A program made the position numbers and the translations under genes. DNA of 64,000 nt from Armatimonadota bacterium. Its GTDB lineage: Bacteria > Armatimonadota > Fimbriimonadia > Fimbriimonadales > Fimbriimonadaceae. The DNA lies in assembly GCA_029781035.1 (NCBI GenBank), contig JAKOXK010000081.1, forward strand, positions 62,001-126,000. Reading direction: 5' to 3'. The notes under the pieces are model-generated. The model was not told the DNA's origin, did not search any database, and was given only the letters and a program-made list of their open reading frames with translations. Positions 1,784-59,620 of the stretch are shown in pieces. The first letter of the stretch is position 1; each line of letters opens with the position of its first letter.

Positions 1784-1799
1784 TCCCAGGTCGTGCAAC

Positions 1800-5069: not shown

Positions 5070-5097
5070 GGTGGGCGACGCCCTAGGATGATACGAC

Positions 5098-6932: not shown

Positions 6933-6969
6933 AGGCTCGAAAGGTTACCTCCGGTAGACTCAACATACA

Positions 6970-7443: not shown

Positions 7444-7449
7444 CTGGGC

Positions 7450-8552: not shown

Positions 8553-8562
8553 TTCTTTCTTA

Positions 8563-27855: not shown

Positions 27856-28857
27856 TTAAGCGATCGTTGCCACCGGAGAGCACTCGGCTATCTGCCGCAA
27901 CTGCTCCAACTCGGGCCGATGGGCCGGTTTGGCGTTCATGACCGCCTTGACGACCTCTGCCAACTCCGCATCGCCGACTCCGCGACGGAGTGCTTCCCGG
28001 ATCCGTGAATCTGGCTCAGCGAACTGGCATGACTGCACGCGACCATCGGCGGTGAAACGGATCCGATCGCACTGGTTGCAGAAAGTCTCTGACAGGGCTG
28101 GCACGAACCCGACCGTCCCCGTGCGGTCCGGAATACGGTACTCCTTGAGGTCCAGCGTCTGTCGGTCAGGGATTTCGACTAGAGGATAGCGGCAGCGGAC
28201 GTTTTCGACCATTAGTGACCACGGAAAGACGGCGCCCTGCATCCACCCGACGTTGGTGAACGGCATGAGTTCGATGAAGCGCACTTGATCGTGGGTCTCC
28301 TCCACCATCGCTACGAAGTCGTCCAGTTCATCGGCATTCACGCCTTTCATGACAACAGTGTTGATCTTCACTGACTCGTAGCCGGCTTTCTTAGCGGCCT
28401 CGTAACCTGAACAGGCTTGATCCAAGAGTTGCGTACCCGTGATCTTCATGTACCGACCGTGTCGGAGCGTGTCCAGACTGAGATGGATGGAGTCAAGTCC
28501 GGCTGCATGGAGATCTGAGACTGTCGCGGCCAAGTCGGTCCCCATTGTCGTCAATGAGACCGTCTGGGCTCCAGCGTTGGCCTTGATCCCATGGATCAGG
28601 CCAGGAAGCCCTGCATAGTTTGACGTCGTCGCCGCCGTCAGGTGGACATGTTCGACCCCGAGGCTGACAAGGACGCGGGCGAGATTGACTATCTCACCGT
28701 TCTGCAATGCGGTCGAATCAGCAGCACCCGCCGTCAAGGATTCGGGAGCCCGATAGATCATTCGGAAGGGATTGTCCGTCGCCAGGCGGAACCGAGCCTC
28801 CTTGACCGCCCGTCCTTGATTGTCTCTCCACGCGTGGCTATCCTGAGTCGCGCCCAT
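27856..28857 (-). CDS. MoaA paralogue lacking the radical-SAM CxxxCxxC and GGEP motifs
   Basis: It aligns along its whole length with the true MoaA at 32387. The C-terminal cluster ligands survive (ETFCNQCDRIRFTADGRVQSC), as do GLDSIHLSLDTL and VRFIELMPF. At the radical-SAM site, however, DRCNFRCRYCMP becomes DNPFRMIYRAPE, losing all three Cys, and the SAM-binding RLTGGEP becomes HLTAATT. The C-terminal GG that MoaA needs is also absent (ends VATIA). It cannot run the GTP cyclisation step. It is last in the moa operon, 44 bases after moaE-moeB. A GTP- or cluster-binding accessory role is a possibility only. Confidence 0.85.
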   Translation of the reverse strand: MGATQDSHAWRDNQGRAVKEARFRLATDNPFRMIYRAPESLTAGAADSTALQNGEIVNLARVLVSLGVEHVHLTAATTSNYAGLPGLIHGIKANAGAQTVSLTTMGTDLAATVSDLHAAGLDSIHLSLDTLRHGRYMKITGTQLLDQACSGYEAAKKAGYESVKINTVVMKGVNADELDDFVAMVEETHDQVRFIELMPFTNVGWMQGAVFPWSLMVENVRCRYPLVEIPDRQTLDLKEYRIPDRTGTVGFVPALSETFCNQCDRIRFTADGRVQSCQFAEPDSRIREALRRGVGDAELAEVVKAVMNAKPAHRPELEQLRQIAECSPVATIA

Positions 28858-28901
28858 GGGCGGATTGTCGGCAATCTATACGGAAGTGGCAATGACGCGC
28901 G

Positions 28902-30053
28902 TCATAGGCTCTGGTTTCGGCAGTCCTCACAGTCCTTCCGGGAAACGAGCGATCGCCGGGTCAGCGTCAACTCGGTTTCGTCAAAGACCAGGGCAGAAGT
29001 CGCGAGGCCGTCGCGGACGGGAAGGAGCCAGTTGAGCGCTTCGCTTGCCATCAGGCTGCCCATGCTCGCAGTGAGGGTCGGTGTTGGCGTTTCTGAGCCC
29101 GAACTTGAGAGCGCCTTTTCGACGTGCGAACGGAAGCAGCTGAGACAAAGACTGTCAGGCCGAATCGTTCCTAGACATCCGCGCCTTCCTTGGGCACGGC
29201 CTATGACCAAGGGCCTGGATTCCCTGCGACACACGGAATCGAGTGCCGATGTCGACTTCCAGTCCTGGGAGCTGTCGATGATGACGTCGTGGTCCAGGAC
29301 AAGCCGTGACGCGAGTTCCGGCGACAGGGGCTCTGGTACCGAGACCGCGTTGATGAACGGACTCAATCTCGATGCGAAAGCTGCCGCCCGATCGGCTCTG
29401 TTTCGACCGACTTCATCGAACTTGTACAGCGGCTGCTGGGGCAATCCGCCCGTTTCGACGAGCCCCGGATCGACAATTGTGACCCGACCAATACCCGCTC
29501 CGACGAGGCAGGGCAGCGCCGAGCAACCCAGAGGGCCAGCCCCGACAACCAAGGCTCGCCCCTGTCGAAGCCGCTCTAGTCCGTCGGCGCCGACCCCAGT
29601 CACCAGTTGCTGGGAAGCCACGAACTCTTCTTGGCCCTGAACAAGCGACTGGATCGGCTCCGAACCTACCCACCCTGAGTCGCCTTCCGCGTAATGCTCT
29701 TTCTTCCAGATCGGTATGCGGTGCTTGATCTCGTCGATGATCCACTCGCATGCAGCGAACGCTTCACGACGATGGGCCGAAGCCACGCCGATCCAGACGG
29801 CCGCATCGCCGATTTGGAGGTGACCAACCCGGTGAACGACCTTGGCCCAAACGAGCCCGAACCTCTCGATGGCCTCCTGGACGAGCCGTATCCCCTCGGT
29901 CACGGCCAGCTCTGGATAGGCCTCGTACTCGAGGGAGACGACAGGGCGGCCTTGGCTCCGTGATCGGACCCGACCTTCGAACGTCACAAACCCACCTGCG
30001 TGCACTGGCTCCACGTCGAGGGGCGTCAGGGGCGTGTTCGAGAGTTCGAACAT
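28902..30053 (-). CDS. MoaE-MoeB fusion (molybdopterin synthase large subunit plus E1-like enzyme)
   Basis: Residues 1-130 are MoaE: GFVTFEGRVRSRSQGRPVVSLEYEAYPE, AVWIGVASAHRREAFAACEWIIDEIKHRIPIWKKEHYAEG, with the catalytic lysines of PIWKKE. From about 145 to the end is a ThiF/MoeB-type domain (ALVVGAGPLGCSALPCLVGAGIGRVTIVDPGLVE; zinc-type CLSCF and CEDC pairs). The E1 Arg in the family's NLxRQ is not obvious here (TGGLPQQPLY), so its adenylating activity is uncertain. MoaE uses sulfur on the MoaD tail to make molybdopterin; fusion to the E1 would couple sulfur loading and transfer. Confidence 0.85.
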   Translation of the reverse strand: MFELSNTPLTPLDVEPVHAGGFVTFEGRVRSRSQGRPVVSLEYEAYPELAVTEGIRLVQEAIERFGLVWAKVVHRVGHLQIGDAAVWIGVASAHRREAFAACEWIIDEIKHRIPIWKKEHYAEGDSGWVGSEPIQSLVQGQEEFVASQQLVTGVGADGLERLRQGRALVVGAGPLGCSALPCLVGAGIGRVTIVDPGLVETGGLPQQPLYKFDEVGRNRADRAAAFASRLSPFINAVSVPEPLSPELASRLVLDHDVIIDSSQDWKSTSALDSVCRRESRPLVIGRAQGRRGCLGTIRPDSLCLSCFRSHVEKALSSSGSETPTPTLTASMGSLMASEALNWLLPVRDGLATSALVFDETELTLTRRSLVSRKDCEDCRNQSL

Positions 30054-30055
30054 GA

Positions 30056-30295
30056 TCAGCCCCCTGCAACCGGAGGAACAAAGACGACGTCGTCCCCCTC
30101 GTGCAATTCAGAATCCGCTCCGACAAAGGCGCCGTTAATGGCGGCCTTCACCTGCGATGGGTCCAAGGAAAAGCCGTGTGTCCGTGCCAGTTCGCGGTAG
30201 AGCCGGTCAGGCGAGTCCGCATGGGTGTCGACCGTCTCCTCATCGAGGCCGCGTTGATCCCGCAACAGAGCAAAGTATCGGACACGGATTCTCAT
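30056..30295 (-). CDS. moaD: Molybdopterin synthase sulfur-carrier subunit MoaD
   Basis: Ubiquitin-like protein starting MRIRVRYFALLRDQRGLDEETV and ending FVPPVAGG, with the C-terminal Gly-Gly that carries the thiocarboxylate. About 79 residues. The start ATG 30295 overlaps the moeA stop as ATGA. Its partner MoaE begins three bases after its stop codon. Confidence 0.92.
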   Translation of the reverse strand: MRIRVRYFALLRDQRGLDEETVDTHADSPDRLYRELARTHGFSLDPSQVKAAINGAFVGADSELHEGDDVVFVPPVAGG

Positions 30296-31491
30296 GACAG
30301 ACAACTCCAAGGCAACGGGTAGACCGGTACCGGATCGCCTCGTTTTGAGGTGCTATGGGGCGGTATTCGGATCAAGCAGTTAGCCGAGGCTAGACCAGCC
30401 ACGGCGTGCGATCCGACCGTCGGCGAAGGCACGACTGTTGTGCCGGCCGGTTCCCAGTTCGCCCGGCCTGGCACCAGTTCATCCCGGTCAGAGCGGTTCG
30501 TCTCGTCTCGTTCTAGCTTGGCCGTCCGCCATGCTGGCTGAGGCAGTCCCATAAGTCCGTTCAGAAGCGGCCACCCGAAAAGGGTGAACGTGACAAGGGC
30601 TGACATCGGGTTGCCTGGCAGGCACACGATCAGTTTGCCGTCAGAGCGGGTCGCCAGGGTGAACGGCTTGCCGGGCTTGATCGCTACTCCCGCGACATCA
30701 GACTCAAAACCAAGCTTCTTAAGCGAAGCCGGAATGTGGTCGAGCATCCCGACTGAGACTCCACCCGAGGTGAACACGACGGTCGAACGGTTCACCAAGT
30801 TCTCAAGGACACGCTGAGTCGCTTCGACATCGTCGGGCACTGTTTCCAGATGAGCGGAGAGACCGAGGTGCGCAAGGACCGCCGATAGGGCAAAGGAGTT
30901 GCTTTCGTAAATCTGGGCTGGCCCCAACTGCTGGCCAGGCTTGGCCAGTTCGGATCCGGTGGCGAGCAAGCCAATCCGAGGGGAGCCGACAACCGAAGCC
31001 GTCGTCCGGCCCAAGGCGGCGAGAGTCGCCACGAGGGGCGGCGTGACGGTCGTTCCCCGCTCAACGATCAGTTCCCCTTGCTTGTACTCATCGCCTGCTC
31101 GGCGGATATGTTGACCCTCCCGAACAGGAACACTGACTCGCACCGTGCCGCCTTCGCGCTCGACGTCTTCCTGCATAACGACCGCGAACGTTCCCTGCGG
31201 AACCATAGCGCCCGTGAGAACCTGGATCGCCTGACCTGGCTGAAGCACGGTGCCTGCTTGTGACCCCGCCGGAACCAGACCAACGACAGGAATCGGTCCC
31301 TGTCGGTAGGCGTCCGCGTCAGCGACCGCATACCCGTCGACGGCCGAGTTGTCGAATCGAGGTATCGGAAACGGGGCTGTCACGTCTTCGTCAAGGCAGT
31401 GCCCCAGGCATCCGAGTAGCTCGACGCACTCGGGTTGCATGCGGTTCGCGTGAGTCAAGACCCGTTGGAGGGCTGACTCATACGACTGCAT
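30292..31491 (-). CDS. moeA: Molybdopterin molybdenumtransferase MoeA
   Basis: Inserts molybdate into adenylated molybdopterin. It shows FPIPRFDNSAVDGYAV, VQEDVEREGGTVRV, RIGLLATGSEL, YESNSFALSAVLAHLG, FTSGGVSVGMLDHIPASLKKLGF and CLPGNPMSALVTFTLFGWPLL. All MoeA domains are represented in 399 residues. It abuts the moaC-mog gene (one-base overlap) and overlaps moaD. Confidence 0.95.
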   Translation of the reverse strand: MQSYESALQRVLTHANRMQPECVELLGCLGHCLDEDVTAPFPIPRFDNSAVDGYAVADADAYRQGPIPVVGLVPAGSQAGTVLQPGQAIQVLTGAMVPQGTFAVVMQEDVEREGGTVRVSVPVREGQHIRRAGDEYKQGELIVERGTTVTPPLVATLAALGRTTASVVGSPRIGLLATGSELAKPGQQLGPAQIYESNSFALSAVLAHLGLSAHLETVPDDVEATQRVLENLVNRSTVVFTSGGVSVGMLDHIPASLKKLGFESDVAGVAIKPGKPFTLATRSDGKLIVCLPGNPMSALVTFTLFGWPLLNGLMGLPQPAWRTAKLERDETNRSDRDELVPGRANWEPAGTTVVPSPTVGSHAVAGLASANCLIRIPPHSTSKRGDPVPVYPLPWSCLS

Positions 31492-32390
31492 CAGTGACCT
31501 CCACCAGCGAGGATCACGAATGCGTGTGTCAAGTACGGGAACAATGCATCCAGTGCATCTTTGACGGCTCCCACCGATCCCGGCAATGCGATCAGGACCG
31601 TCTCGCCCACGACGCCGGCGACGGGACGCCCGAGGATCGCGGTCGGTGTCCGCTCCCTACCATAAGCGTGCAGCTTGGCTTCCACTCCTGGCAGGCGTTT
31701 GTCGAAGATTCCGTGGAGGGCCTCGGGGGTCTGATCGCGCGGCCCAAGGCCAGTGCCGCCCGTTACGAGCACCAGATCGAGGCCTTTGCCGCACCAACGT
31801 TCAACGGTCGTCCGGACTGCTTGACGCTCGTCCGGCACCACCCCGAACTCAACGATGTCGCCACCCTGTTCTTGAAGACGGTCCCGCAAAAGCGCACCCG
31901 ATTCGTCTTCGGCCGTTCCCGCAGAGACCCGGTCCGACACGACCAGTACTCCGCAAGTCCAGCCTTTCTCGGCTTCGAAGTTGCTCTTGCCTCCAGTCTT
32001 GTCCAGAAGACGAACCGACGTGACCTCGACGTGATCGTCGATCATCTTGAGGATGTCATAGATGTTGAGGGCTGCCGCCATGGCGCCGGTCATCGCTTCC
32101 ATCTCGACGCCGGTCTTGTACACCGCTTTGACTGAAACGTCGACTGTGATTCCCGCATCGTCAATTTGGAACTCAACGCCGACGTGATCGATCGGCACGG
32201 TGTGACAATAGGCGATCCACTGGGGGGTCGCTTTAGCGGCTTGGATCGCGGCGACCTTGGCTACAGGCAAAGGGTCGCCCTTCGGCACTGTTCCCTGACG
32301 CATAGCCTGGATCGACGACGGCGACACCGACAAGACGGCGCGCGCCCTCGCTGTCCGCAGGGTGTGGCTCTTGGCCGAGACGTCCCTCAT
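31491..32390 (-). CDS. MoaC-MogA/MoaB fusion
   Basis: Residues 1-~142 are MoaC, the cyclic pyranopterin monophosphate synthase partner of MoaA (MRDVSAKSHTLRTARARAVLSV, LIDDHVEVTSVRLLDKTGGKS, TGVEMEAMTGAMAAALNIYD). Residues ~145-299 are a MogA/MoaB adenylyltransferase (GVLVVSDRVSAGTAEDESGALL, VLVTGGTGLGPRDQTPEAL, LIALPGSVGAVKDALDALFPYLTHAF). One chain thus carries both a second and a late Moco step. The ATG overlaps moaA's TGA, so it is coupled to moaA; the track ORF starts 23 codons upstream inside moaA. Confidence 0.92.
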   Translation of the reverse strand: MRDVSAKSHTLRTARARAVLSVSPSSIQAMRQGTVPKGDPLPVAKVAAIQAAKATPQWIAYCHTVPIDHVGVEFQIDDAGITVDVSVKAVYKTGVEMEAMTGAMAAALNIYDILKMIDDHVEVTSVRLLDKTGGKSNFEAEKGWTCGVLVVSDRVSAGTAEDESGALLRDRLQEQGGDIVEFGVVPDERQAVRTTVERWCGKGLDLVLVTGGTGLGPRDQTPEALHGIFDKRLPGVEAKLHAYGRERTPTAILGRPVAGVVGETVLIALPGSVGAVKDALDALFPYLTHAFVILAGGGH

Positions 32391-33424
32391 CCGCCGATCT
32401 GCACCATGGCCTTGTCGTCGTGCCCGACCCACTGGTCCATGGCCGGGTGGCCTGCCCACTTCGTTTGCAACGCCACGTGGATAGCCTCAGCCAGTTCGTC
32501 GTCACTTGATCCTTGTCGCATCATGTCTCGCAAACTCGTCCCGGCCTTGAGGAAGAGGCACGTCTTGATTTGCCCCTCCGCCGTCAATCGGATGCGGTTG
32601 CACCCACCGCAGAAGTCGTCGGTCACCGAGGTGACAAAACCGATCGACGCTCTCGTGCCCTCGACTTGAAATTCCTTGGCCACGGCCGACTTGTCGATTT
32701 CGAGTGGCCGGAGTTTGAACTGGGTCTCGATCAGACGGATCATCTCGCGGTACGGAAGTACCCCCGCCTTGGTCCATTCGTTGCCCAGGAACGGCATGAA
32801 CTCGATGAACCGCACATGAACGCCCTTGTCGATCCCGAACTGAACGAAGTCCACGAGTTCGACATCGTTCACGCCTGCCATCGCGACGACGTTGACCTTG
32901 ACCGAATCATAGCCCGCGTCCAAGGCGGCATCAATTCCCGCCAAGACTTTTTGGAGGTCTCCACCGCGGGTGACTTCCACAAAGCGGTCCGGTTGGAGGG
33001 AGTCGAGACTGATGTTCAACCCCGTCAGGCCCGCGGCTCGATAAGCGTGCGCTTGTGAAGCGAGCGTCGAACCGTTTGTGGTCATGAGAAGAGGTCCAAG
33101 CCCCTCCAATGCCCTCAGTTCCCGGATCAGTCCGACAAGTCCCTTTCTGACGCTCGGTTCGCCCCCAGTGAGCCGGATTTTCTGGACGCCGAGTTTGACA
33201 AAGATCCACGAGAGCCGAACGCACTCTTCGAGGGACAGCACCTCGTTGCGCGGTTTCCACTCGACGCCGTGCAAGGGCATGCAATAGCGACACCTGAAGT
33301 TGCACCTGTCCGTCAGTGAGAGGCGCAAATAGGTGTGCTTGCGACCGAAACGGTCGACCAGGGGTCGCCAAGGATCTGTTCCCGCGCTCACTCCCTTCAG
33401 GATATCCAAGGGTTCGTCTTGCAT
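32387..33424 (-). CDS. moaA: GTP 3',8-cyclase MoaA
   Basis: First Moco enzyme. The radical-SAM motif LSLTDRCNFRCRYCMP, SAM-binding RLTGGEP, C-terminal cluster CGGCNRIRLTAEGQIKTC and terminal Gly-Gly (VQIGG) are all present. I start at MQDEPLDILKG (33424); a TTG ten codons earlier is the track start. It leads the minus-strand moa operon (moaA, moaC-mogA, moeA, moaD, moaE-moeB, moaA-like), with an inverted repeat 83 bases upstream. Confidence 0.95.
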   Translation of the reverse strand: MQDEPLDILKGVSAGTDPWRPLVDRFGRKHTYLRLSLTDRCNFRCRYCMPLHGVEWKPRNEVLSLEECVRLSWIFVKLGVQKIRLTGGEPSVRKGLVGLIRELRALEGLGPLLMTTNGSTLASQAHAYRAAGLTGLNISLDSLQPDRFVEVTRGGDLQKVLAGIDAALDAGYDSVKVNVVAMAGVNDVELVDFVQFGIDKGVHVRFIEFMPFLGNEWTKAGVLPYREMIRLIETQFKLRPLEIDKSAVAKEFQVEGTRASIGFVTSVTDDFCGGCNRIRLTAEGQIKTCLFLKAGTSLRDMMRQGSSDDELAEAIHVALQTKWAGHPAMDQWVGHDDKAMVQIGG

Positions 33425-33867
33425 GGGGCGAACAGGGCCCACCGACCACGACAAACTGGAAAATCTTTGGCGGCTTGACAGGGCTGAGTTTCATTTGGGC
33501 TGCCTCATGACAACTGTCATTTCCCTGTCTTAGAGGGCGGCACACCATTGGGTTATGGCGTTTTGCAGGCCGACCAACCGGCTCGGCACGTCCCCGGAAA
33601 TCCCCGCGGAGCATCGGCTTCGGGGGCCCTTGAGGACATGCAGGCGTCCACCCTTTGACACTCATCTTCCTGGTTTGGGTTGCTGGCGGATCCACGGCGC
33701 GGCTGCCTCGTGGTGGCGGACCAGCGAAGCGCTCAATACCTCGAAGCGATGGTCGCTGAATGCTGTACCGCACAATTGCGCTACTGGCTGCTCGTTAGCC
33801 AGAATGGGCGATTGTCGATCGCATGTGACTCGTTTCTTATCGCGCCCAAAACAAAAAGAGGTGTACC
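33425..33867. other. Divergent spacer between moaA and the Crp/Fnr gene
   Basis: No gene supported. It contains the operator-like palindrome at 33507 on the moaA side. The right half holds spacer up to the regulator's ribosome-binding site. Confidence 0.5.
33507..33520. promoter_or_regulatory. Inverted repeat ATGAC-AACT-GTCAT upstream of moaA
   Basis: Perfect 5-bp arms around a 4-base centre, the geometry of Crp/Fnr-family operators. It lies 83 bases before moaA, and the same arms occur upstream of the cytochrome operons at 38418 and (one mismatch) 43036. The likely binder is the Crp/Fnr-family protein encoded at 33868, an inference. Confidence 0.65.
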
Positions 33868-34608
33868 ATGGCGGCTAAATCCGTCGTATCTTGGAGACAC
33901 GCGATGGTATCAGTTCCCGAAAGGCCTTCCATCTTGTCGGTAGTCGACTCGTGCCCTCTGCTTACGTCGCTCAGTGACGCGCACCGGTCAGAACTGCTGT
34001 CCGAGTGCTTCATGGCCTATGCGGAGCGGAGCGAACTGATTTGGCTCGCCGGTTCACCGAGTCAGTTCGTCGCCGTCGTCGGAGTGGGGTTTGTCAAGAT
34101 GTGCAAGTGTTCGTCCCGCGGATCCGAGGTCGCGGTCGAACTGATTGGCCCGAACAACTGTTTTGGGGTGACGGCCGCTCTTGAGAACCGGCCCTATCCG
34201 TTGAGTGCGATCGCTGTCACGAACACATGGTATTTGAAGATTCCGGTGCGAGTTTTCACCCGGCTCTACGAACAAGACGACCAAATTCGGACCAATGTCG
34301 TCCAGCAAATGTCGCCCCGTTTGCAGCGCGCCCACAACATGATTGCCCGCATGTCGTCAGGCAAAGTCGACCAGCGCATGGCTGCCGTCCTGTTGCTCCT
34401 AATGGACGCCTATGGCCGCGAAGTCGAGGACGGGATCGAGGTCACGGTGCCGCTGACTCGGCAAGACCTGGCCGAGATGGCTGGCACCACCGTGGAGACC
34501 TCGATCCGGACAATGAGCCGTTGGCAACGCGAGGGCATCGTGGTGACGACACAACAGAGGATCACGATCCTCAACCCCGACTTGCTCAACGAGGCCCTTC
34601 TCAGCTAG
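33868..34608 (+). CDS. Crp/Fnr-family transcriptional regulator
   Basis: A cyclic-nucleotide-binding-like sensor domain (about residues 20-140: SQFVAVVGVGFVKMCKCSSRGSEVAVELIGPNNCFG) is joined by a long helix to a winged HTH (VPLTRQDLAEMAGTTVETSIRTMSRWQREGIV). The recognition helix keeps Glu and Arg of the Fnr-type ExxxR pattern but has Ile where Fnr has Ser. The Fnr N-terminal four-Cys cluster is missing, so it probably senses NO, redox state or another cue. AGAGGTG precedes ATG 33868; ATG 33904 also has GGAG. Convergent, four-base overlap with mobA. Confidence 0.85.
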   Translation: MAAKSVVSWRHAMVSVPERPSILSVVDSCPLLTSLSDAHRSELLSECFMAYAERSELIWLAGSPSQFVAVVGVGFVKMCKCSSRGSEVAVELIGPNNCFGVTAALENRPYPLSAIAVTNTWYLKIPVRVFTRLYEQDDQIRTNVVQQMSPRLQRAHNMIARMSSGKVDQRMAAVLLLLMDAYGREVEDGIEVTVPLTRQDLAEMAGTTVETSIRTMSRWQREGIVVTTQQRITILNPDLLNEALLS

Positions 34609-35177
34609 ATGAGTTTGAGGAGTCTGGACAGCGCTTCGGGCGTGTTCGCGTTGTGGTAAGAGTGTGGCTTTAGGCCCTCGGCGACCAGGACAGCTTCGTC
34701 GATCTCTTCGACCCAGAGTGTGTCGAGCCACGCCCTCATGCTCTTGCGCCCCTCAGCCAGTACCGTTTGAATCATCAAGAACGCGGGCGCACGGTACAAG
34801 GCGCACAAGGGTTGGGTCTCGCCATCCACGACCGGCACTAGGGCCGACACCGAGTCGTGACGGCAGATGTGAGACTCCAGTACGGGCACGATTCTCGCAT
34901 CGAACAGCGGCATGTCGCACGAGCAGACGAAAACCATCGGTTCGTGCGGCACAAAGCGGGAAAGCGCGCACAAGGGGCCACGGAAGCTGCCTTCGTCGGC
35001 GAGGAAAGCATGGCCAGGCAAGGGGGATTGCCCCAAGACCGTAACCCTGGTGCTCGTCCTGGCCAGCTCTTGCGCAGTCCGCTCTCCCAGGGGAAGACCA
35101 TCCACCACAAGGGTCGATTTGTCACTCCCCATGCGGCTGCTCCTTCCTCCTGTCAAGAGGATGGACTCCACGCCCAT
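34605..35177 (-). CDS. mobA: Molybdenum cofactor guanylyltransferase MobA
   Basis: Attaches GMP to Moco, giving the guanine dinucleotide form used by the DMSO-reductase family of enzymes. MGVESILLTGGRSSRMGSDKSTLVVDGLPLGERTA is the nucleotidyltransferase motif, with FVCSCDMPLFDARIV in the middle. About 190 residues. The upstream 68 residues in the track ORF are not convincing. Its presence implies a bis-MGD enzyme elsewhere in the genome; none is in this window. Confidence 0.9.
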   Translation of the reverse strand: MGVESILLTGGRSSRMGSDKSTLVVDGLPLGERTAQELARTSTRVTVLGQSPLPGHAFLADEGSFRGPLCALSRFVPHEPMVFVCSCDMPLFDARIVPVLESHICRHDSVSALVPVVDGETQPLCALYRAPAFLMIQTVLAEGRKSMRAWLDTLWVEEIDEAVLVAEGLKPHSYHNANTPEALSRLLKLI

Positions 35178-35400
35178 ACAAGTATTTTCCCTCGCCTTCG
35201 GCGCGAATTGATCGGGTTGAGGGTCAAACTCTGCAACGTTTCGACCCGGTCTCGGCACCAGCCGACAGCACTCCGCCCTGAGGTTGGGCGCACGAACCCA
35301 GGACGGCGGACTCCGAACAGCCCTTGAAAGGACCACCTCCAAAAAGGGGCGCTGGACCAATCTCGCACCAGCGCCAAACAACTACCCGCGAAGGTGAAAG

Positions 35401-35440: not shown

Positions 35441-35767
35441 TCAGTCCTTGACTCCGGGGTTCCGATCTTTCTTGATCTCGTCCCCGTTCTTGACCCCGTC
35501 TTTGTCTGAGTCTAGCTTATCGACTTTCGACAGAAGATCAGGCGTTAGCTTGCCGCCAGCTGCCTTCGCAGCGGCGGCGAGGTCTTGACCGTAAGGGTTC
35601 AGTTTTCCACCGGTCGCCTTCACGTGGCAAACGCCACACTTGGCTTTCCCGAGGTTCGAATCCGGCTTTACGGAATACTTTGTGTTGAACGACTTCTGAA
35701 AAGCACCCGTTGCCAACACCAGAATAGCCATTGATGCGATCAGAAGGGTCACTATCGTTCGTTTCAT
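35441..35767 (-). CDS. Small exported monoheme cytochrome with EF-hand-like loop
   Basis: MKRTIVTLLIASMAILVLATGAFQKSF is a signal peptide. Then comes one heme site CGVCH (KAKCGVCHVKATGG) and, near the C-terminus, DSDKDGVKNGDEIKKDRNPG, a calcium-loop-like sequence. 108 residues, closely similar to the protein at 37989 (shared KPDSxLGKAKC, KxTGG/KASGG, GVKN/GMKNG). It is flanked by terminators on both sides, so it is its own transcript. A periplasmic electron carrier is the natural role, inferred. Confidence 0.8.
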   Translation of the reverse strand: MKRTIVTLLIASMAILVLATGAFQKSFNTKYSVKPDSNLGKAKCGVCHVKATGGKLNPYGQDLAAAAKAAGGKLTPDLLSKVDKLDSDKDGVKNGDEIKKDRNPGVKD

Positions 35768-35894
35768 TCTTTCACCATTCGCGGTTTGGTTTCATTGCTC
35801 TTCGGGCCAGGCCCTATCCCCTCACTTGTGTCTACTCCTCCCCACATTAGAATGTTCCACACTTTCGGTTTTCAATCTATTAGTCCTAGCTGCC

Positions 35895-35925
35895 AAAAAA
35901 GAAGGCCGCGCCAGTTGGCGCGGCC
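35895..35925 (-). terminator. Terminator of the CbcL-like gene
   Basis: Minus strand: GGCCGCGCC AACT GGCGCGGCC then TTCTTTTTT. Strong intrinsic terminator, 23 bases after the stop codon of the gene at 35948. Confidence 0.9.
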
Positions 35926-35947
35926 TGAGGACTCTTCCTGCTTCAGA

Positions 35948-37837
35948 TCACGGAGAAGAGCTGGGTGGTTCCGTATCGCGTGGGTCGTCTGCCGACTGTT
36001 CCGGACTTTCGGGTTCGGCCGGTACCTCTTCCGGATAGGGTTCCATCCCGCCGAACTGGCTCTCCAGCTTGCGGAGTCGTTCAAGCTCGAGCGGGTGCTC
36101 GTGCGCCATCTCTTCTTCCGTCAGGACGCCTGTGATCCATACGGGGTTCATCAAGAAGGACTGCGGACGGAAGTGGTTGATCTGTCGCAGGGCGATCGCG
36201 TTGTAAAGATGCCAGAGAGTGACAGCCAACAACGCCAAGACCGCTTCATAGGAGTGCGCCACGTAAGCGATAGGAATCGCGTCGGCAGGAAGTACGTTTC
36301 CAGTCCTTACCGGGAACCAGAGAATGAGGCCTGATAGTCCCATTATCGGCACGCCCCAGTATTCAGCTAGGTAGTCCAATTTGGAACGGAAAGTGTACTT
36401 GCCGAACTTCGGCTCTTCCTTTGAGAGACCTAGATGGAATTTCACAGTCGTTAGGAAGTCGTGAATGTCCTTCTTATTGATCATCATCGACCAGGACTTG
36501 AAGGAGAAGCCGACCCGTTTCCATTTGACTACCAGCTCTCCGATGTGGAACAGCCAGACTGCGATCATAAGGATCCCGGCACTGTGGTGCACAAGCCGCA
36601 TCACCGGCATCCCGCCCATCGACATGTAGATCGCCCGCAGGGTGCCCTGTTCAGGGAAGCGCAGCGGGAATCCGGTCAAGACCAGAGCGGTGAAGGACAC
36701 GATCAGGAGAAGGTGCTGAATCCTCAGCGAGAGACCCATCCTCGGATAGAGCTTTTGGTTCTTGATCTCGCGGATGTCCCAAGACCGGAAGGCGCCGATC
36801 AGGATCGAGGCAAGAATCAACGCGATCGCGGCACCGACAGAGGCCATCGCACCAGGAATCCTGAAGGAAGCCTGGATGATCGCCCAAACCAAGAAGAGGA
36901 AGCTGAGGGCGCTCGTCAAGGCGACGGCTCGGAAGACCGGTGTCAGGTTCTTGAGGAACAACGCCCGCTTGAGGTCGAACAGGACGCCCAGGGCGAGGAA
37001 CGAGTTCACGCCTACGATCAGGGCCAGGAAGAAGAGCTTGATTCCAAAAAGGAAGGGCTCCTTGTCGATACGGAGATTGAGATGTCCGGCTCCCGACATG
37101 GCGAAGTTCATCTTCGCCCCGGGGTGGCATCCCGCCTGTCCGCAAGTCTTGGCCAGATTGGTCGAGTGTGTCGGAGACGCAGGATCCTTTGGGTTCAAAA
37201 CGTCGTGGATCCCATGGCAGTCGGCGCAAATCGCAGTCTTGAGGTTGCCGAACCGCATCAGGGCCTTACCGTGGAACGAGTTGTTGTAGGAATCCACGAC
37301 ATCGGTCGTGGCGCCGTACTTCTTCATCCTCGCTTCGTCCGAGTGGCAGTCCTGGCACACTTTCACCTTTTGCGCCCGTGTCCAAGTGCCTCGGATGACG
37401 ACCGCATGGGGATTGCCGCCACCGTGGCATTTGACGCAGGTCGGGTGGTCGCCCTTGACCTTGTCCGGTCGTGCGTGAACGCTTGCGACGTACTTCTCCT
37501 CCTCGTCCGGGTGGCAGTTGCCGCACTTCGGCAGGTTCTTGATCTGCTCCTCAGTGTGCGGCTCGGTCGCCGACATTCCGGTGTGGCAGTCCGTGCAGGC
37601 GAAGTCCTTGTGCGGCGAGTGTCGGAGCGCGTCCAAGCTGACGGCCGGAGCCGTCTTCGCTTCGGGATCGTGGCACACGAGACACTGGTGCCGTGATGCC
37701 GCCGCTTCTTCGGCAGCGCTGTCGTCGGTGGTTCCCCCTTGAGTCTCGGCAGTCTGTGCCATCAATCCTACGCTCAGTAGAACAATGGCGGTGGCAATGG
37801 GAGCCACCTTGAGAATCACATTTCTAAATCGTTTCAC
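35948..37837 (-). CDS. CbcL-like quinol oxidoreductase: multiheme c domain fused to a cytochrome b domain
   Basis: From a GTG (37837) with AGGAGG seven bases before it, the protein has a signal segment (VILKVAPIATAIVLLSVGLM). A cytochrome c region of ~225 residues follows with six CxxCH (CLVCH, CTDCH, CGNCH, CVKCH, CQDCH, CADCH) and one CX4CH (CGQAGCH). Then come several membrane spans, including a diheme cytochrome b type set with His residues in RIQHLLLIVSFTALVLTG, LVHHSAGILMIAVWLFHIGELV and HSYEAVLALLAVTLWHLYNAI. This layout is that of CbcL-type inner-membrane complexes moving electrons from menaquinol to periplasmic cytochromes. The tail (EEVPAEPESPEQSADD) is acidic. Confidence 0.82.
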   Translation of the reverse strand: MKRFRNVILKVAPIATAIVLLSVGLMAQTAETQGGTTDDSAAEEAAASRHQCLVCHDPEAKTAPAVSLDALRHSPHKDFACTDCHTGMSATEPHTEEQIKNLPKCGNCHPDEEEKYVASVHARPDKVKGDHPTCVKCHGGGNPHAVVIRGTWTRAQKVKVCQDCHSDEARMKKYGATTDVVDSYNNSFHGKALMRFGNLKTAICADCHGIHDVLNPKDPASPTHSTNLAKTCGQAGCHPGAKMNFAMSGAGHLNLRIDKEPFLFGIKLFFLALIVGVNSFLALGVLFDLKRALFLKNLTPVFRAVALTSALSFLFLVWAIIQASFRIPGAMASVGAAIALILASILIGAFRSWDIREIKNQKLYPRMGLSLRIQHLLLIVSFTALVLTGFPLRFPEQGTLRAIYMSMGGMPVMRLVHHSAGILMIAVWLFHIGELVVKWKRVGFSFKSWSMMINKKDIHDFLTTVKFHLGLSKEEPKFGKYTFRSKLDYLAEYWGVPIMGLSGLILWFPVRTGNVLPADAIPIAYVAHSYEAVLALLAVTLWHLYNAIALRQINHFRPQSFLMNPVWITGVLTEEEMAHEHPLELERLRKLESQFGGMEPYPEEVPAEPESPEQSADDPRDTEPPSSSP

Positions 37838-37943
37838 CACAAGCCCTCCTAGCTTGCTGGTGCCAAATTCTCGCCGGTCTGCTTCGCGTTTCCGCTCCGG
37901 TTGCCCAGGAGCACCTGGCACCGGCTTCCCTTGAAGTTTTTCC

Positions 37944-37978
37944 GTGGCCCGGGCCCTTCAAGGGCGAACCCGGGCCAC
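37944..37978. other. Stable hairpin between cytochrome genes
   Basis: Arms GTGGCCCGGG / CCCGGGCCAC (10 bp) sit in the spacer between the 37989 gene and the CbcL-like gene. No U-tract follows on the minus strand, so it may set relative expression or mRNA stability rather than end transcription. Confidence 0.55.
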
Positions 37979-37988
37979 GATCCTAGGC

Positions 37989-38318
37989 TTAGTTCTTGAC
38001 GCCGGGGTTGCGATCCTTCTTGATCTCTTCCCCGTTCTTCATGCCATCGCCGTCAGAGTCTTTGCCCTCGACCTTCTTCAGGATCTCAGCGGTGACTTTC
38101 TTTCCACCGGACTCCTTCAGGGCCGCGTAGACGTCCTTGCCGAATGCGTTGAACGCGCCACCGCTAGCCTTGGTGTGGCAAATCATGCATTTCGCCTTGC
38201 CAAGAGTGGAGTCGGGTTTGACCTTGTACGTGTCGTTAAAGGTCTTCAAGAACGCACCTGTGGCCATGGCGACCGCCGCCAAGCCGGTGACTGTTGCAAA
38301 GATGATCAAACGTTTCAT
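37989..38318 (-). CDS. Small exported monoheme cytochrome with EF-hand-like loop
   Basis: Starts MKRLIIFATVTGLAAVAMATGAFLKTFNDTYKVKPDSTLGKAKCMICHTKASGG; signal peptide and one CMICH heme site. The C-terminal DSDGDGMKNGEEIKKDRNPGVKN is a canonical-looking calcium loop. GGAG lies eight bases before ATG 38318; the track ORF adds 33 residues. It is first in an operon with the CbcL-like gene and has the Crp/Fnr-like palindrome 100 bases upstream. Probably shuttles electrons from CbcL to the outer-membrane conduit. Confidence 0.82.
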   Translation of the reverse strand: MKRLIIFATVTGLAAVAMATGAFLKTFNDTYKVKPDSTLGKAKCMICHTKASGGAFNAFGKDVYAALKESGGKKVTAEILKKVEGKDSDGDGMKNGEEIKKDRNPGVKN

Positions 38319-38417
38319 GGGACTGTCTCCGTATGGTTTCCCGAATTGAGGATACCAGTGGGTTAAACGTGTAAAGGCTTTCCTACCTACATTGTTGGCG
38401 GCCTGTTTGGGGGCCAT

Positions 38418-38431
38418 ATGACCGGTGTCAT
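38418..38431. promoter_or_regulatory. Inverted repeat ATGAC-CGGT-GTCAT upstream of the cytochrome/CbcL operon
   Basis: Identical arms and spacing to the site upstream of moaA, 100 bases before the first gene of the operon. Confidence 0.65.
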
Positions 38432-38498
38432 TCTTCGGGCCTTCTAATGAAACCTAAAGGTCGGCAGGATCGGGGCGAGCAACCCTTGCGGACACAGA

Positions 38499-38530
38499 CC
38501 GAGGCCCGTCAGGAGCCTGACGGGCCTCGG
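38499..38530 (-). terminator. Hairpin after the octaheme gene
   Basis: CCGAGGCCCGTCAGG / CCTGACGGGCCTCGG, a near-perfect 15-base stem with a 2-base centre, 28 bases after the stop codon at 38559. The U-tract is weak (TCTGTGT). Confidence 0.75.
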
Positions 38531-38558
38531 ATTTGGGCTTGTTTCTCGACCGTGGGCT

Positions 38559-40007
38559 TTAGAAGTCCTTTTGGAACCCTTGCCCAGCTCGCTTGTAGTC
38601 GCCCTGGATGACACGGAGCTTCTCGTCCCTTGAGACAGTGTTCCCGCCGTTGACCGGCTTGCTGCCGAGAACTGAATCCATGTTCAGGTTTGCCACCTCA
38701 AGGAGAGTCTCGACGTACGGGTGGTTGTGGATACCGTAGTCGTTGGACTCGACGATGAAGTAGTAGTTGTGACGCGCGCGGCGGACTTCGATCGGAATCA
38801 GCTTCTGATCCGGCGGCGTCTTGCCGAGTGCCGACACGTTTGTGGAGTAGTCCCAGAAGTCCGGGTCGCCGAGCTGTGCCTGAGCCCAGGTCTGCATCTT
38901 CGTGCGGAGTGCATAAAGCTCGTCCAACACGCTTTGCTTCACTGAGGTCGCTCTGGCGGCCGCGTCTTGAGCGGTGTGGCAAGGCGAACAGCTTGTGTCG
39001 TAGCTCACCGTGAAGGTGTGCCGCGCACTGGGCATATGGCACTTGCTGCACTGACCAGGAGCCTCGGCGTGAGCCGTGTTCCGCTTGACCACTCCGTTGC
39101 CTTCGGCGCCACCGATGCCCATCAGCATGTTGTATTGGTTGCTGGCGTGCATGTTCGGCCTCGAGCCGGAGTCGGGGATCAGTTTGGCATCGGTGCCGTT
39201 CGCGCCGCGACCGTTGTGGCATTCGCCGCAACCATGGTCAAAGGCAGTGAACTGAGCAGCCGTTGTTCCCGGATTGACCATCGACGTGTCGATGTTGAAT
39301 GTCTTGTGCCGGAGCTGCTTCTCTTCGCCGTCGGCGTTGAGGTTCCCTGTCTTGGCGTGCGGGTTGTGGCAGGTGTTGCAGTTCGCAATCTGAGGCGCCA
39401 CGTTGACGGTCTCATCGACGAACTCTTGCACTTCGGGGTCGGTCAGCGTCGAAATGTCGATGCCCTTTTCATAAACTTCCGTACGGAAGATATTGCTGTG
39501 GCAAAGGACGCACCGGCTGTTTCGAGCGTACTGACCTGGGTTGGTCGCAGCCTCTTCGATCGGGGCTGTGATCAGTTCCTTGTGCTTGGACTGGTTCCAC
39601 TCGTCATGGGTTGGGCCGTGGCATTGGCCACAAACAACGGCGGTGTCGACCCTGGGCGAGCTCACGATGTTGTCCTTCGTGGGGTTCGCCTGGTGGACGC
39701 TGCCGTTGCCGTGGCACCTTTCACACCCGACGCCAACGCTGGCGTGCTTGGTGTCGTGCCAAGTTGTGTAGACGGGGTCGCTCGCCTTCCCGCCGTGGCA
39801 CGGCGCGCAGGCTTCGGACCCGATTGCTGTGGCGGACTTTTGCTCGTTAGACATCAAAGCTAAGAACTCTGAACTGAACGATCCCCCGCCTGTCCCGCCT
39901 CCGCCGCCGCCCGCAGGGCCACCCTCGCCGCCGCAGCTCTGCACTGTCAGCAGCATGGCGGCGTAAGGGAGTGCGGCGAAGAGGGCTAGGTACCAACGTA
40001 CTTTCAT
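38559..40007 (-). CDS. Octaheme c-type cytochrome lipoprotein
   Basis: MKVRWYLALFAALPYAAMLLTVQSCGG has a lipobox-like VQSC, followed by a Gly-rich linker. Eight CxxCH sites: CAPCH, CERCH, CGQCH, CVLCH, CNTCH, CGECH, CSKCH, CSPCH. The C-terminal ARHNYYFIVESNDYGIHNHPYVETLLEVA resembles the C-terminal helix region of NrfA-type multiheme enzymes. It is last in the operon after the MtrA-like and MtrB-like genes, where MtrC-type surface cytochromes are found in known porin-cytochrome systems. Surface exposure, versus periplasmic nitrogen-compound reductase, is not decided by sequence alone. Confidence 0.78.
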   Translation of the reverse strand: MKVRWYLALFAALPYAAMLLTVQSCGGEGGPAGGGGGGTGGGSFSSEFLALMSNEQKSATAIGSEACAPCHGGKASDPVYTTWHDTKHASVGVGCERCHGNGSVHQANPTKDNIVSSPRVDTAVVCGQCHGPTHDEWNQSKHKELITAPIEEAATNPGQYARNSRCVLCHSNIFRTEVYEKGIDISTLTDPEVQEFVDETVNVAPQIANCNTCHNPHAKTGNLNADGEEKQLRHKTFNIDTSMVNPGTTAAQFTAFDHGCGECHNGRGANGTDAKLIPDSGSRPNMHASNQYNMLMGIGGAEGNGVVKRNTAHAEAPGQCSKCHMPSARHTFTVSYDTSCSPCHTAQDAAARATSVKQSVLDELYALRTKMQTWAQAQLGDPDFWDYSTNVSALGKTPPDQKLIPIEVRRARHNYYFIVESNDYGIHNHPYVETLLEVANLNMDSVLGSKPVNGGNTVSRDEKLRVIQGDYKRAGQGFQKDF

Positions 40008-40080
40008 TGCTTTCCTCCGCTACTTTTCCTTTTCAGGGCCGCCTCCATGGCGACCCAAACTGTCGCATGACGCTCCACTT

Positions 40081-41736
40081 TCAGAACCTCACCCTGAATG
40101 AGAGCATCACCATCGTCGCGTCGTAACCGACGTTGTCGTAGATCCGGTCCCGGTATTGCCAAGGAGCAACCGTGAGCGCGGCTTCGTTGCCGTTGCCGAA
40201 CTGATGGGTCAAAGAAGCCGTGAGGTAACGGCCGCGGAAATTGCCATCGGGCAGGAGCAACGGGTTGTCGTTGTCGGTGAAGAGATAGGTGTAACTGGCG
40301 GCGAGCCACCAGTTGGGCTTGACCGTCCAGTTTCCACCGAGCGCCAGCGTCGTGGCCGACGGATAGAAGCTGTCCAAGTCGAGGCCGCCCACATCGGACA
40401 GGCCCTTGGCTTTCGTCTGTGAGTTCGAGAACTCGAAATAGGCGTCCGCGTTGTCCGCGACGCTGAAGCTGCCACCGAATGTGACCGTTCCCGTCGTCAC
40501 ATCGACCTGCCGGTCTGTGTTGCGGGTGTAGTTCACGTTGTAGGTGGCATAGCCCAGCAGCCGACCGAGGTTCGCGTCAATCTTGGCCTGTGCTCGGACA
40601 CGCTGATCCCAGTACAGAAGCCGTGAGTCGGTGGTGTCCATCGTCGCCGGGTCTGTTGCCCGGTTCCAAGTCCATCGCGCCGATAACCGGATCGCCTTGT
40701 TGATCCTCCCGGTGGCTTTCGCTTCTAACTGGTCGAACTTCGGCACATCGACGTACGTGTGGTCGGCGGTGACCCGTTCGTTCTCCCGGTGCCGGTAGCC
40801 GAATTGGAAGTTCCAGCGTTGCCAGTACTGAGTTAAGTTGAACGAGCTGTTGAACCGGTCCTGCACGTAGGCGTTGGCCACGTTTGGCAAGTCGAAGGAG
40901 TCACGGCTGAAGTTGAACCGAAGGTTCGTGTCAGGCCCGATGTCCCAATCGCCACCAATGGACGACGACTTGATCTCGCTGTCCTGGTACCCCGTCTGCT
41001 CGATCCGAGTCTGCCCAAGGGATCCTTCAAGACCGATCGCGGGCGTCAACTGGATGCCATAACGTCCCGTGAGCCGTCGTTGGACGCTCTCAGGCTGGAA
41101 GCCCTGCATGTCCACGAACCGCCAGTCCGTGTAGGTGACGGCAGCGTCCCCACCCAGGGCCTTGCCTTCAAGGCTCGCGGTCGTCGTCCTCGTGCGGGTC
41201 GCGGTTGGATCCTTGGCTGCTTGGAAGCTGTAGTCCTTCTGGTCGCGGTGGTACTTCACGAACAACCCGATCTCGGGAGTGATCGCTTGGCTCACCGTCA
41301 CCGTGGTCAGCTTGCTCGTGCTCGGTTCGACCGGGCCGGAACCTGGATCCGAGAACTCGTTGCGGCTGAAGTTGAACCACAACTGGGTCTGACCGTGGAA
41401 GAACTGCATCAGCCCAGAGACGGCCGACGTCTCAAGGCCCGGCGCAGCGATGTCGATGCTCGCATACGGTGAGTTCGCTTTCAGCGGGAACACGAGGTTC
41501 ATGTCCGCGATGTAGAACCCGTGCCCCGGGGTCGAGTATTGAAGGAACTTGTGACGATTGCCTCTGATGGCCCAGTCACCGTAGGCGAGGTCCAAAGTGC
41601 CCCATTGCGTGATCGCAGTGGACGCTTCGGTCGTTGGCGGATTCGTGTCTCCGGCCTGTTGGCCATCCTGGCCCCAAGACGCGGCTGCGGCAAAGGCGAG
41701 CCAGATCAAGCTGACGGTTCGTCGGTTCAGTCTCAT
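40081..41736 (-). CDS. MtrB/PioB-family outer-membrane beta-barrel
   Basis: MRLNRRTVSLIWLAFAAAASWGQ is a signal peptide, and GGAGGT sits seven bases before ATG 41736. The ~530-residue remainder is an alternating-pattern barrel (RWNFQFGYRHRENERVTADHTYVDVP, TLALGGNWTVKPNWWLAASYTYLFTDND) ending with an aromatic (LSFRVRF), as outer-membrane barrels do. GTLDLAYGDWAIRGNRHKFLQYSTPGHGFYIADM resembles the MtrB/PioB start. It would sheathe the decaheme cytochrome encoded directly upstream. Family assignment is by architecture and context more than by long exact motifs. Confidence 0.8.
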   Translation of the reverse strand: MRLNRRTVSLIWLAFAAAASWGQDGQQAGDTNPPTTEASTAITQWGTLDLAYGDWAIRGNRHKFLQYSTPGHGFYIADMNLVFPLKANSPYASIDIAAPGLETSAVSGLMQFFHGQTQLWFNFSRNEFSDPGSGPVEPSTSKLTTVTVSQAITPEIGLFVKYHRDQKDYSFQAAKDPTATRTRTTTASLEGKALGGDAAVTYTDWRFVDMQGFQPESVQRRLTGRYGIQLTPAIGLEGSLGQTRIEQTGYQDSEIKSSSIGGDWDIGPDTNLRFNFSRDSFDLPNVANAYVQDRFNSSFNLTQYWQRWNFQFGYRHRENERVTADHTYVDVPKFDQLEAKATGRINKAIRLSARWTWNRATDPATMDTTDSRLLYWDQRVRAQAKIDANLGRLLGYATYNVNYTRNTDRQVDVTTGTVTFGGSFSVADNADAYFEFSNSQTKAKGLSDVGGLDLDSFYPSATTLALGGNWTVKPNWWLAASYTYLFTDNDNPLLLPDGNFRGRYLTASLTHQFGNGNEAALTVAPWQYRDRIYDNVGYDATMVMLSFRVRF

Positions 41737-41759
41737 GGAAGGCACCTCCATCACCTTTC

Positions 41760-42740
41760 TCATGGCTTTAAGAAGTAGGGGTCGGTGTTGCTCCCGTGAG
41801 GGGCAACGTGGCACCCGGTGTTCCAGCAGCTCTGGCCCGGATGGTGAGTCGACAGTTTCTCCGTGTGGCACTGGGCGCACAACCCTCGGGAGAACGTATT
41901 CAAGAGCCTCGGATTGGCCGATCCGTGCGCCTTGTGGCACTCCAGACAGCCGTCACCAGAGTTACCTGCGACGGGATCGTGCTGGTACACGAACGGACCG
42001 GCGTATTCCGTGTGACACGTCACGCACTTGTCGTTGACCCCGTTGAAACGGGACTTCGACTCCTTGCTCGGGTGGACCGTGTGACAGTCGCTACAGACGA
42101 CTTGGCCCTCGGGCACAGGGTGGTGCGAGTTCATGCGGAACTGCGCGATCTCAGACGTGTGGCACTGGCCGCACAAAGTCGGCTCGTCCGCCATCAGTAG
42201 ACTCTTCGTTGCCGCCGCTGCCGTGAAGAGTGGCTTCTTCAGGTCGTCGGCTTTGCCTCTTTTGAAACTGCTGTCCGCCCACTGCGGCTCCGAGTCCGGG
42301 TGAATCTTGTGGCAAGTCACACAGGCAAGGTCGGCCTTGGCGTGGGCCGAGTTCTTCCAGTGAGACGCGCTCATCGTCGATTCGTGGCAGCGCAGACAGG
42401 CCGCAGACGACTCCTTGGGAGTCATCGACCGGAACGAGACCACCTCAGGGTTGTTCTCGTCCTGGTGGACCCCGCCAGCGCCGTGGCAGCCTTCGCACCC
42501 TCGCTTGCCCAGAGGCAACTTGTCACTGCTCATACAAGCAGCGTGGGGAGATCCAGCGAAGTTCGCGACCTTGTCCTCGTGACAGGCGGCACAATACTCG
42601 TCGCCCTTGAAGTCCTCAGCCTTCGCCCGCTGGAAAATCCGCTCTGCCTCATGGCCGGGTCCATCTGCTTTTCCCGGAAACGCGGCGCCGATAAACAACG
42701 ACGCCGAACAGAGACAAAGAAGGAGACTCCAGATTCTCAT
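41760..42740 (-). CDS. Decaheme c-type cytochrome, DmsE/MtrA/PioA type
   Basis: From ATG 42740 (MRIWSLLLCLCSASLFIGAAF) the protein has nine CxxCH sites (CAACH, CEGCH, CLRCH, CVTCH, CGQCH, CSDCH, CVTCH, CLECH, CAQCH) and a tenth CX4CH (CWNTGCHVAPHGSN), the DmsE-family ending. It is the periplasmic/outer-membrane electron wire in porin-cytochrome conduits. It is first gene of the operon with the barrel and octaheme genes. A palindrome matching the moa site lies about 296 bases upstream. Confidence 0.88.
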   Translation of the reverse strand: MRIWSLLLCLCSASLFIGAAFPGKADGPGHEAERIFQRAKAEDFKGDEYCAACHEDKVANFAGSPHAACMSSDKLPLGKRGCEGCHGAGGVHQDENNPEVVSFRSMTPKESSAACLRCHESTMSASHWKNSAHAKADLACVTCHKIHPDSEPQWADSSFKRGKADDLKKPLFTAAAATKSLLMADEPTLCGQCHTSEIAQFRMNSHHPVPEGQVVCSDCHTVHPSKESKSRFNGVNDKCVTCHTEYAGPFVYQHDPVAGNSGDGCLECHKAHGSANPRLLNTFSRGLCAQCHTEKLSTHHPGQSCWNTGCHVAPHGSNTDPYFLKP

Positions 42741-43172
42741 CCGTCCCTCCGTAGGGCGGTTCTCCCCCATCCTTTTGGTCGATCCGCATTCATCATGTGT
42801 CTTCCCCCGATGGTCGTTCCTAGTTACCGGGTTGACTTTTCCGTACTCGAACCTACCCAGTACCCAAGGCCATGTCTATGATATTGGCTGATTCTAACAT
42901 TACGAAAGTATCCACATAAGCGTTTTATTGTTATTGAGGCGGGGTCGTGACAACTTTAGGTTCAAAAAGCGACACAGCGTGCCTCTCCCCGCATTCACCG
43001 ACAGGTGGCCGACTTGGGCCTTTAGACCACTTTTTATGACGGTTGTCAGGGGTCTGGTAGTCACCCTGGACTGGGCTCAAAACGCCCCTGCAACGACCTT
43101 CGCGGGCACGGCCAACAGGGCTCAAGACGTGCTTCTGGAGCGTGTCTCACGATCACAGGAACGTCCCGCGAC
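42741..43172. other. Long leader upstream of the decaheme operon
   Basis: No gene supported. AT-richer than its surroundings near 42890-42940 (tgatattggctgattctaacattacg), which could hold the promoter, and it contains the operator-like site at 43036. Confidence 0.5.
43036..43049. promoter_or_regulatory. Inverted repeat ATGAC-GGTT-GTCAG upstream of the decaheme/barrel operon
   Basis: Same arms as the sites at 33507 and 38418 with one mismatch (final G for T). About 296 bases upstream of the first gene, further than typical. Confidence 0.5.
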
Positions 43173-58388: not shown

Positions 58389-58467
58389 CGAGTTCCAAGT
58401 TGTCGGTGGAGGCGTACAGTGTTTACTCGGAAACGGGGCAGCGGTACCTGCTTCCGGAGAACGAACA

Positions 58468-58914: not shown

Positions 58915-58941
58915 GTCGAGATCAAGGGCCAACCACGAGTC

Positions 58942-59613: not shown

Positions 59614-59620
59614 GCTCGGT

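Follow-up and report, generated by a model that had tools for sequence, protein, structure and literature searches.

In the MtrCAB complex of Shewanella the outer membrane protein MtrB is a barrel of 26 strands with a small cap helix between strands 1 and 2, and tryptophan 204 of the cytochrome MtrA sits beneath this helix as a cap contact (PMC7198977). The porin-cytochrome (Pcc) clusters of Geobacter are described as phylogenetically unrelated to Mtr (PMC4245776). Proteins of the CbcL/MtrH/MtoC type combine N-terminal c-hemes (3–23) with six transmembrane segments and b-type ligands (PMC6295460), and the cytochrome OcwA, which has two high-spin hemes, reduces nitrite slowly and reacts with hydroxylamine (PMC6703420). 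A survey of mtrCAB spanned three phyla and makes no mention of Armatimonadota in its text (PMC8805035); MtoAB-like genes have been found in one Armatimonadota metagenome-assembled genome (MAG), mg024 of the class UBA5829 (Kato et al. 2022, PMC9671151). The subject of this work is a cluster of six minus-strand genes at positions 35441 to 42740 of a 64,000-nucleotide window (the whole stretch of DNA analysed, G000:C77:62001-126000) from an Armatimonadota genome of 3.42 Mb in 98 contigs, which is 96% complete. The cluster probably encodes an MtrAB-type (porin-cytochrome) trans-envelope electron conduit with an outer octaheme cytochrome that is not MtrC, and for the core of decaheme cytochrome and barrel the confidence is higher than for this full statement. 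The type of conduit as such and the presence of MtoAB-like genes in the phylum were already known; what sets this cluster apart is the divergent barrel of its MtrAB-type core and the combination with a proposed non-MtrC outer octaheme.

This reading is built on gene content, heme counts, homology to MtrA, the MtrB-like predicted fold of the barrel and conserved synteny. A preliminary description had read the six genes as a parts list for a porin-cytochrome route, and all of them were confirmed at the positions it gave. When each of the multiheme proteins was shuffled, a mean of 0.01–0.11 and a maximum of three CXXCH motifs were obtained; the actual counts far exceed this expectation, and the heme motifs are therefore not due to chance. 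The MtrA/DmsE-like periplasmic decaheme c-type cytochrome (41760..42740, 326 amino acids) contains nine CXXCH motifs and one CX4CH, the latter being the final motif both in the window protein and in the aligned relatives. Its corrected start is most likely 42740, where an ATG is preceded by GGAGGG. With 189.3–189.5 bits it comes within 3 bits of the curated whole-protein cut-off of TIGR03508 (MtrA/DmsE, 192.2), and its best-scoring family is NF041028 with 195–197 bits at a curated cut-off of 325. Among solved structures, compared by PDB sequence, MtrA is the best match (6r2q_A, E 1.1e-31), so that ten c-heme sites are found together with homology to a solved MtrA. Across 21 homologues the ten histidines of the heme motifs are accompanied by eleven invariant further histidines, as expected for ten hemes with bis-histidine ligation.

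The adjacent gene (40081..41736) encodes an outer membrane beta-barrel of 551 amino acids, the putative MtrB-like sheath. An AlphaFold model built from 28 homologues reached a predicted local distance difference test (pLDDT) score of 85.6 and displays 26 strands and a helix at residues 61–67 between strands 1 and 2. A Foldseek search with this model returned MtrB of the MtrCAB crystal structure in first place (6r2q_B, E 4.3e-13, TMq 0.67). Five of the 28 homologues match GSU2204 (best 1.8e-6) and one matches TIGR03509 (E 0.0031); the window barrel itself has no match to the GSU2204 family. A search of PDB sequences with phmmer and a profile yielded just a porin fragment (E 2e-5) for the barrel and did not retrieve MtrB.

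The third gene (38559..40007) encodes an octaheme lipoprotein of 482 amino acids with eight CXXCH motifs, proposed to be the terminal cytochrome of the outer surface. Its N-terminus is of the lipoprotein type, with a hydrophobic signal, the residues V-Q-S-C, an invariant cysteine 25, a glycine at +2 and a glycine-rich linker, and the protein may be exposed on the outer face. In a profile search against the PDB it matched OcwA (6i5b, 6.4e-13) and OmhA (6qvm, 1e-11), and also MccA and NrfA, and is by this comparison a distant relative of these four proteins. The window octaheme has no match to the MtrC/OmcA profile TIGR03507, and only one of 27 homologues does (E 1.2e-7). The protein is not MtrC-like, and the proposed outer cytochrome comes from a superfamily different from that of MtrC.

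The arrangement of these genes is conserved. Of 57 loci with a barrel (L131 and L132 included, where the barrel scores just 44–46 bits), 56 have the decaheme gene as its immediate neighbour, the exception lying at a contig end, and the octaheme gene comes after the barrel in most of the 57. The common order in the family is decaheme, barrel, octaheme, a CcmF-type heme lyase, monoheme and a CbcL-like or further monoheme protein. Within the family, 33 of 85 genomes have the barrel. Across Armatimonadota it was found in 73 of 291 species genomes, roughly one in four of those sampled, belonging to 41 of 156 genera. Each of the 61 genomes in which a full octaheme was found has a barrel match too, in a count which ignores shared ancestry. 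The barrel profile recovered named relatives from Fimbriimonadaceae, Chthonomonas and further Armatimonadetes MAGs, in agreement with the earlier assignment to an Armatimonadota-type genome.

Several observations weigh against this reading. Neither the window barrel nor any other protein of its genome matches the profiles TIGR03509 or PF11854. TIGR03509 detected 4 of 255 genomes across the phylum, and the barrel of the best of these, G197, differs from the window family; hhalign of the barrel family with this Armatimonadota MtrB gave a probability of 2%, and sequence homology of the barrel to MtrB is consequently not claimed. In the decaheme, a glutamate aligns with tryptophan 204 of MtrA, so that the interface of barrel and decaheme may differ. 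The AlphaFold model of the octaheme is poor (pLDDT 63.5), and the assignment to its superfamily is therefore based mainly on sequence; in Foldseek this low-confidence model, with helices at residues 346–379, 406–421, 429–447 and 460–480, found OmhA and OcwA first (best E 0.0021). Finally, homologues of CbcL, MtrH and MtoC occur in Fe(III) reducers as well as Fe(II) oxidisers, with no feature that distinguishes the two (PMC6295460). The preliminary description had named the barrel MtrB/PioB-type and had offered failure to match these profiles as grounds for refutation. By sequence the barrel does fail to match, and this is outweighed by the predicted structure and the gene context, both of which point to an MtrB-like protein. 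The likeness of the barrel to MtrB thus lies in its predicted fold and its gene context, while by profile it is not a member of MtrB/PioB, and the porin-cytochrome reading is supported by profile, structure and synteny taken together.

Electrons would enter such a conduit at the inner membrane, where the CbcL/MtrH/MtoC-like quinone-linked protein (35948..37840, 630 amino acids) would exchange them with the menaquinone pool. It contains seven c-heme motifs (six CXXCH and one CX4CH) followed by a cytochrome b561-type membrane domain (PF01292, 46.7 bits, over cut-off) with about six transmembrane segments and invariant histidines 376, 418, 432, 529 and 544, and in this architecture, on which the likeness is drawn, it agrees with the published group. 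The seven proximal histidines of its c-domain are matched by seven invariant others, and this, like the eight of eight in the octaheme, fits bis-histidine electron-transfer hemes. Small monoheme cytochromes, or possibly the decaheme directly, would ferry the electrons over the periplasm. Two candidate carriers of the same family are encoded, one of 109 amino acids with one CXXCH and a TSP3/EF-hand-like repeat (37989..38318), which has weak matches to PF24784, PF18884 and NF041762 and a homologue in most clusters of the family, and one of 108 amino acids, also with one CXXCH (35441..35767), with a weak match to NF041762. The decaheme, lodged in the 26-strand barrel, would pass the electrons through the outer membrane, and the octaheme lipoprotein on the outer face would accept them and hand them to an external acceptor, for which Fe(III) or Mn(IV) minerals, humics, shuttles or a partner cell are candidates.

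The flow would probably be outward from menaquinol. The CbcL-like protein does not decide this, because its homologues are found in metal reducers and oxidisers alike, and the preliminary description was right to leave the direction open. The same conduit could run inward: the octaheme would draw electrons from Fe(II), from a mineral or from a second cell, and the CbcL-like protein would reduce quinone in the manner of MtoC. In favour of this are the dual occurrence of such homologues and the published placement of an MtoA-like gene, from an Armatimonadota MAG, closer to PioA/MtoA than to MtrA (PMC9671151). Against these points stand three others, none of them decisive: low-potential menaquinone-type genes (the genome has two of the MqnA/MqnD type, of the futalosine menaquinone pathway) agree better with oxidation of quinol, a gene for an outer cytochrome tends to be missing from mto/pio clusters that oxidise Fe(II) (PMC4245776), whereas a candidate is present here, and the gene neighbourhood is heterotrophic. 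The stretch encodes cytochrome bd and methylmalonyl-CoA mutase/acyl-CoA dehydrogenase, which suggests a respiring heterotroph as host. Inward operation is regarded as unlikely.

A little less likely again is that the octaheme is a nitrite or hydroxylamine-type reductase similar to the octaheme nitrite reductases (ONR) or NrfA, periplasmic or surface-bound, and merely fed by the other cytochromes. The octaheme profile does match structures of NrfA and MccA along with OcwA and OmhA, OcwA itself shows the slow nitrite reduction and the reaction with hydroxylamine mentioned above, and the published list for a hot-spring Armatimonadota MAG includes a "candidate octoheme nitrite reductase" (PMC11788075), which may be the same protein as the window octaheme. 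On the other side, the window octaheme contains no CXXCK, and exactly eight invariant non-motif histidines accompany its eight hemes, which leaves no obviously open site; the sequence thus favours electron transfer over catalysis, makes an open heme site unlikely and would still be compatible with a side activity. No NrfA profile exceeded its cut-off, NrfA scoring far below, and in the 61 genomes a full octaheme was never found without the barrel. The genome has in addition a separate HAO/HDH-like octaheme (L094/L148). This protein of 433 amino acids on G000:C85 (L148:7187-8488) partially matches a hydrazine-dehydrogenase-type profile with 90 bits at a cut-off of 900. A further protein of 412 amino acids with seven CXXCH motifs, encoded on G000:C61 (L109:826-2064), had no NCBIfam match at 1e-10.

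A conduit working for a molybdoenzyme outside the cell, after the pattern of DmsEFAB, is very improbable. Genes for the molybdenum cofactor (Moco), including mobA, do flank the cluster (27856-35381), and a mobA-like gene adjoins it in one other genome (G073). The cluster contains no molybdopterin oxidoreductase. Five such proteins matched elsewhere in the genome, all on other contigs, and they score best as formate dehydrogenase, NasC-like, PhsA-like, NuoG and FdhF/YdeP-like. In the loci of the family that were inspected, mobA was the sole Moco gene of the window to turn up close to the cluster, and this in a single genome; with no molybdoenzyme in the cluster and so weak a recurrence of Moco genes this candidate was rejected. 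The Moco run itself comprises two MoaA paralogues and two apparent fusions, one of MoaE with MoeB/ThiF (28902-30053) and one of the MoaC-MogA type (31491-32459); its neighbours are a Crp/Fnr regulator (33868-34608) and MobA (34605-35381). Least probable of all is a barrel that takes up iron or siderophores as a receptor, with cytochromes that are unrelated or help in assimilatory Fe(III) reduction. In its favour, TonB-dependent receptors come next after MtrB in the fold search (E 1.4e-9 or worse, TMq up to about 0.5). Against it, MtrB is best by both measures, the barrel model has 26 strands rather than 22 and no plug domain, and the decaheme gene is its near-constant neighbour.

The window copy departs from its relatives in one gene and in its phylogenetic position. 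A gene for a CcmF-type heme lyase of about 800 amino acids comes after the octaheme in 25 of 32 loci of the family. It is absent from the window cluster, where the interval 38319-38558 lies between octaheme and monoheme, and from G061, G062 and G063; four other loci without it end at contig edges. The single CcmF found in the window genome (G000:C43:15661-18117) is closest to the general copy of the genus-mates G033 and G034, which possess two each, one in the cluster and one general, the latter 61% identical to the CcmF of the window genome. In a tree of decaheme, barrel and octaheme the window copy falls outside the clade of these genus-mates (support 0.996). For the same three proteins it is 46% identical to G033, while G033 and G034 share 67%; the ClpC proteins of both are 90–91% identical to window ClpC. 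This unusual placement is likely to stem from transfer between members of the family or from replacement, with ancient paralogy as a possible alternative source.

Within the cluster, Shine-Dalgarno-like sequences precede the octaheme, barrel and CbcL-like starts. A perfect GC-rich inverted repeat on the minus strand, GAGGCCCGTCAGG CT CCTGACGGGCCTC, lies 3' of the octaheme gene (38501..38528, read directly) and possibly marks the end of a first transcription unit; the terminator scan did not list it. A hairpin resembling an intrinsic terminator, with a 10-bp stem and a T-run, is located 3' of the CbcL-like gene (35903..35926, minus strand). A simple promoter scan gave no sites and is uninformative for Armatimonadota. 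Elsewhere in the window, the protein of 20137-21213 resembles the portal of a Mu-like phage (DUF935 type) and seems to be a lone remnant of a prophage. The region 52643-60889 encodes TolC-like, membrane-fusion and RND efflux proteins, and after these a response regulator and a histidine kinase.

Across the phylum the decaheme tree follows the families in part: f13, f17, f19, f24 and f30 form clades, f1 does so apart from a single member of f2 within it, and the members of f12 and f26 are dispersed. Among the individual loci, L124 (G121, 1656-9777) has two tandem decaheme-barrel pairs with an octaheme after the second only, L056 (G010, 21-3140) has one pair followed by two tandem octaheme genes, and in family f24 the octaheme relatives of L133 (8470-10464) and L134 (4405-6363) have nine CXXCH motifs, with one in-frame stop around each match. 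The cluster is also carried by L077 (JADZEW010000016.1), titled "Methanoregulaceae archaeon", probably wrongly. A contig scan with one short barrel pattern gave 24 loci, apparently all from Armatimonadota, which does not by itself establish absence from other phyla.

Beyond the single locus, the evidence is about evenly poised on a larger proposal, namely that Armatimonadota possess a phylum-wide class of conduit of their own in which an MtrAB-like module, its barrel invisible to standard profiles, is joined by a surface octaheme of the NrfA/OcwA lineage in place of MtrC, many species maturing this octaheme with a CcmF-type heme lyase dedicated to it, and which supports extracellular respiration. 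If this is true, porin-cytochrome electron transfer would be widespread in a phylum of which few members have been cultured, and the usual profile for MtrB, with its four positive genomes, would miss the trait. The place of Armatimonadota in iron and carbon cycling would change, and extracellular respiration would occur in lineages hitherto described mainly as aerobic heterotrophs. The cluster also suggests that an MtrAB-type wire can draw its outer cytochrome from another superfamily, which bears on the evolutionary assembly of such wires. No account of the present cluster was found in the literature searched, a search outside which most subscription papers fell. The preliminary description had expected the known range to be extended; since MtoAB-like genes had already been reported from another class, UBA5829, Armatimonadota are not a first for the trait, and what the locus adds is a version that is common there.

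Of the described systems, MtrAB/DmsEF of Shewanella (MtrCAB, 6R2Q) resembles the cluster in having a ten-heme cytochrome, homologous to the window decaheme, beside a 26-strand barrel. The window barrel is below profile detection and shorter than MtrB (551 versus 649 residues in the structure), the decaheme lacks an equivalent of tryptophan 204 of MtrA and ends in CX4CH, and the cluster has no MtrC homologue and an octaheme lipoprotein in its place. GSU2203/GSU2204 of Geobacter (NF041028/NF041027) provide the best family for the decaheme and the matches of five barrel homologues, but the decaheme remains under the curated cut-off and the window barrel has no CXXCH and no match of its own. The Pcc clusters of Geobacter (OmbB-OmaB-OmcB) likewise unite a barrel with periplasmic and outer cytochromes, but their barrels are predicted to have 18–22 strands and their periplasmic member has eight hemes (PMC4245776). 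The CbcL/MtrH/MtoC proteins share with the window protein the N-terminal c-hemes and the six transmembrane segments with b-type ligands, with seven c-heme motifs here rather than nine, inside the published range. OcwA of Thermincola and OmhA of Carboxydothermus, surface cytochromes of Gram-positive metal reducers, are distant homologues of the octaheme, but have nine and eleven hemes instead of eight, belong to Gram-positive cell walls without a porin and, in the case of OcwA, include two high-spin hemes. The UBA5829 genes are from the same phylum and likewise pair an MtrA homologue with an MtrB-family barrel (PMC9671151). The TIGR03509-positive barrel of G197 gave no hhalign alignment with the window barrel family, the decahemes are 31% identical, and no octaheme of the present type was seen adjoining the MtrB-family barrel at that locus.

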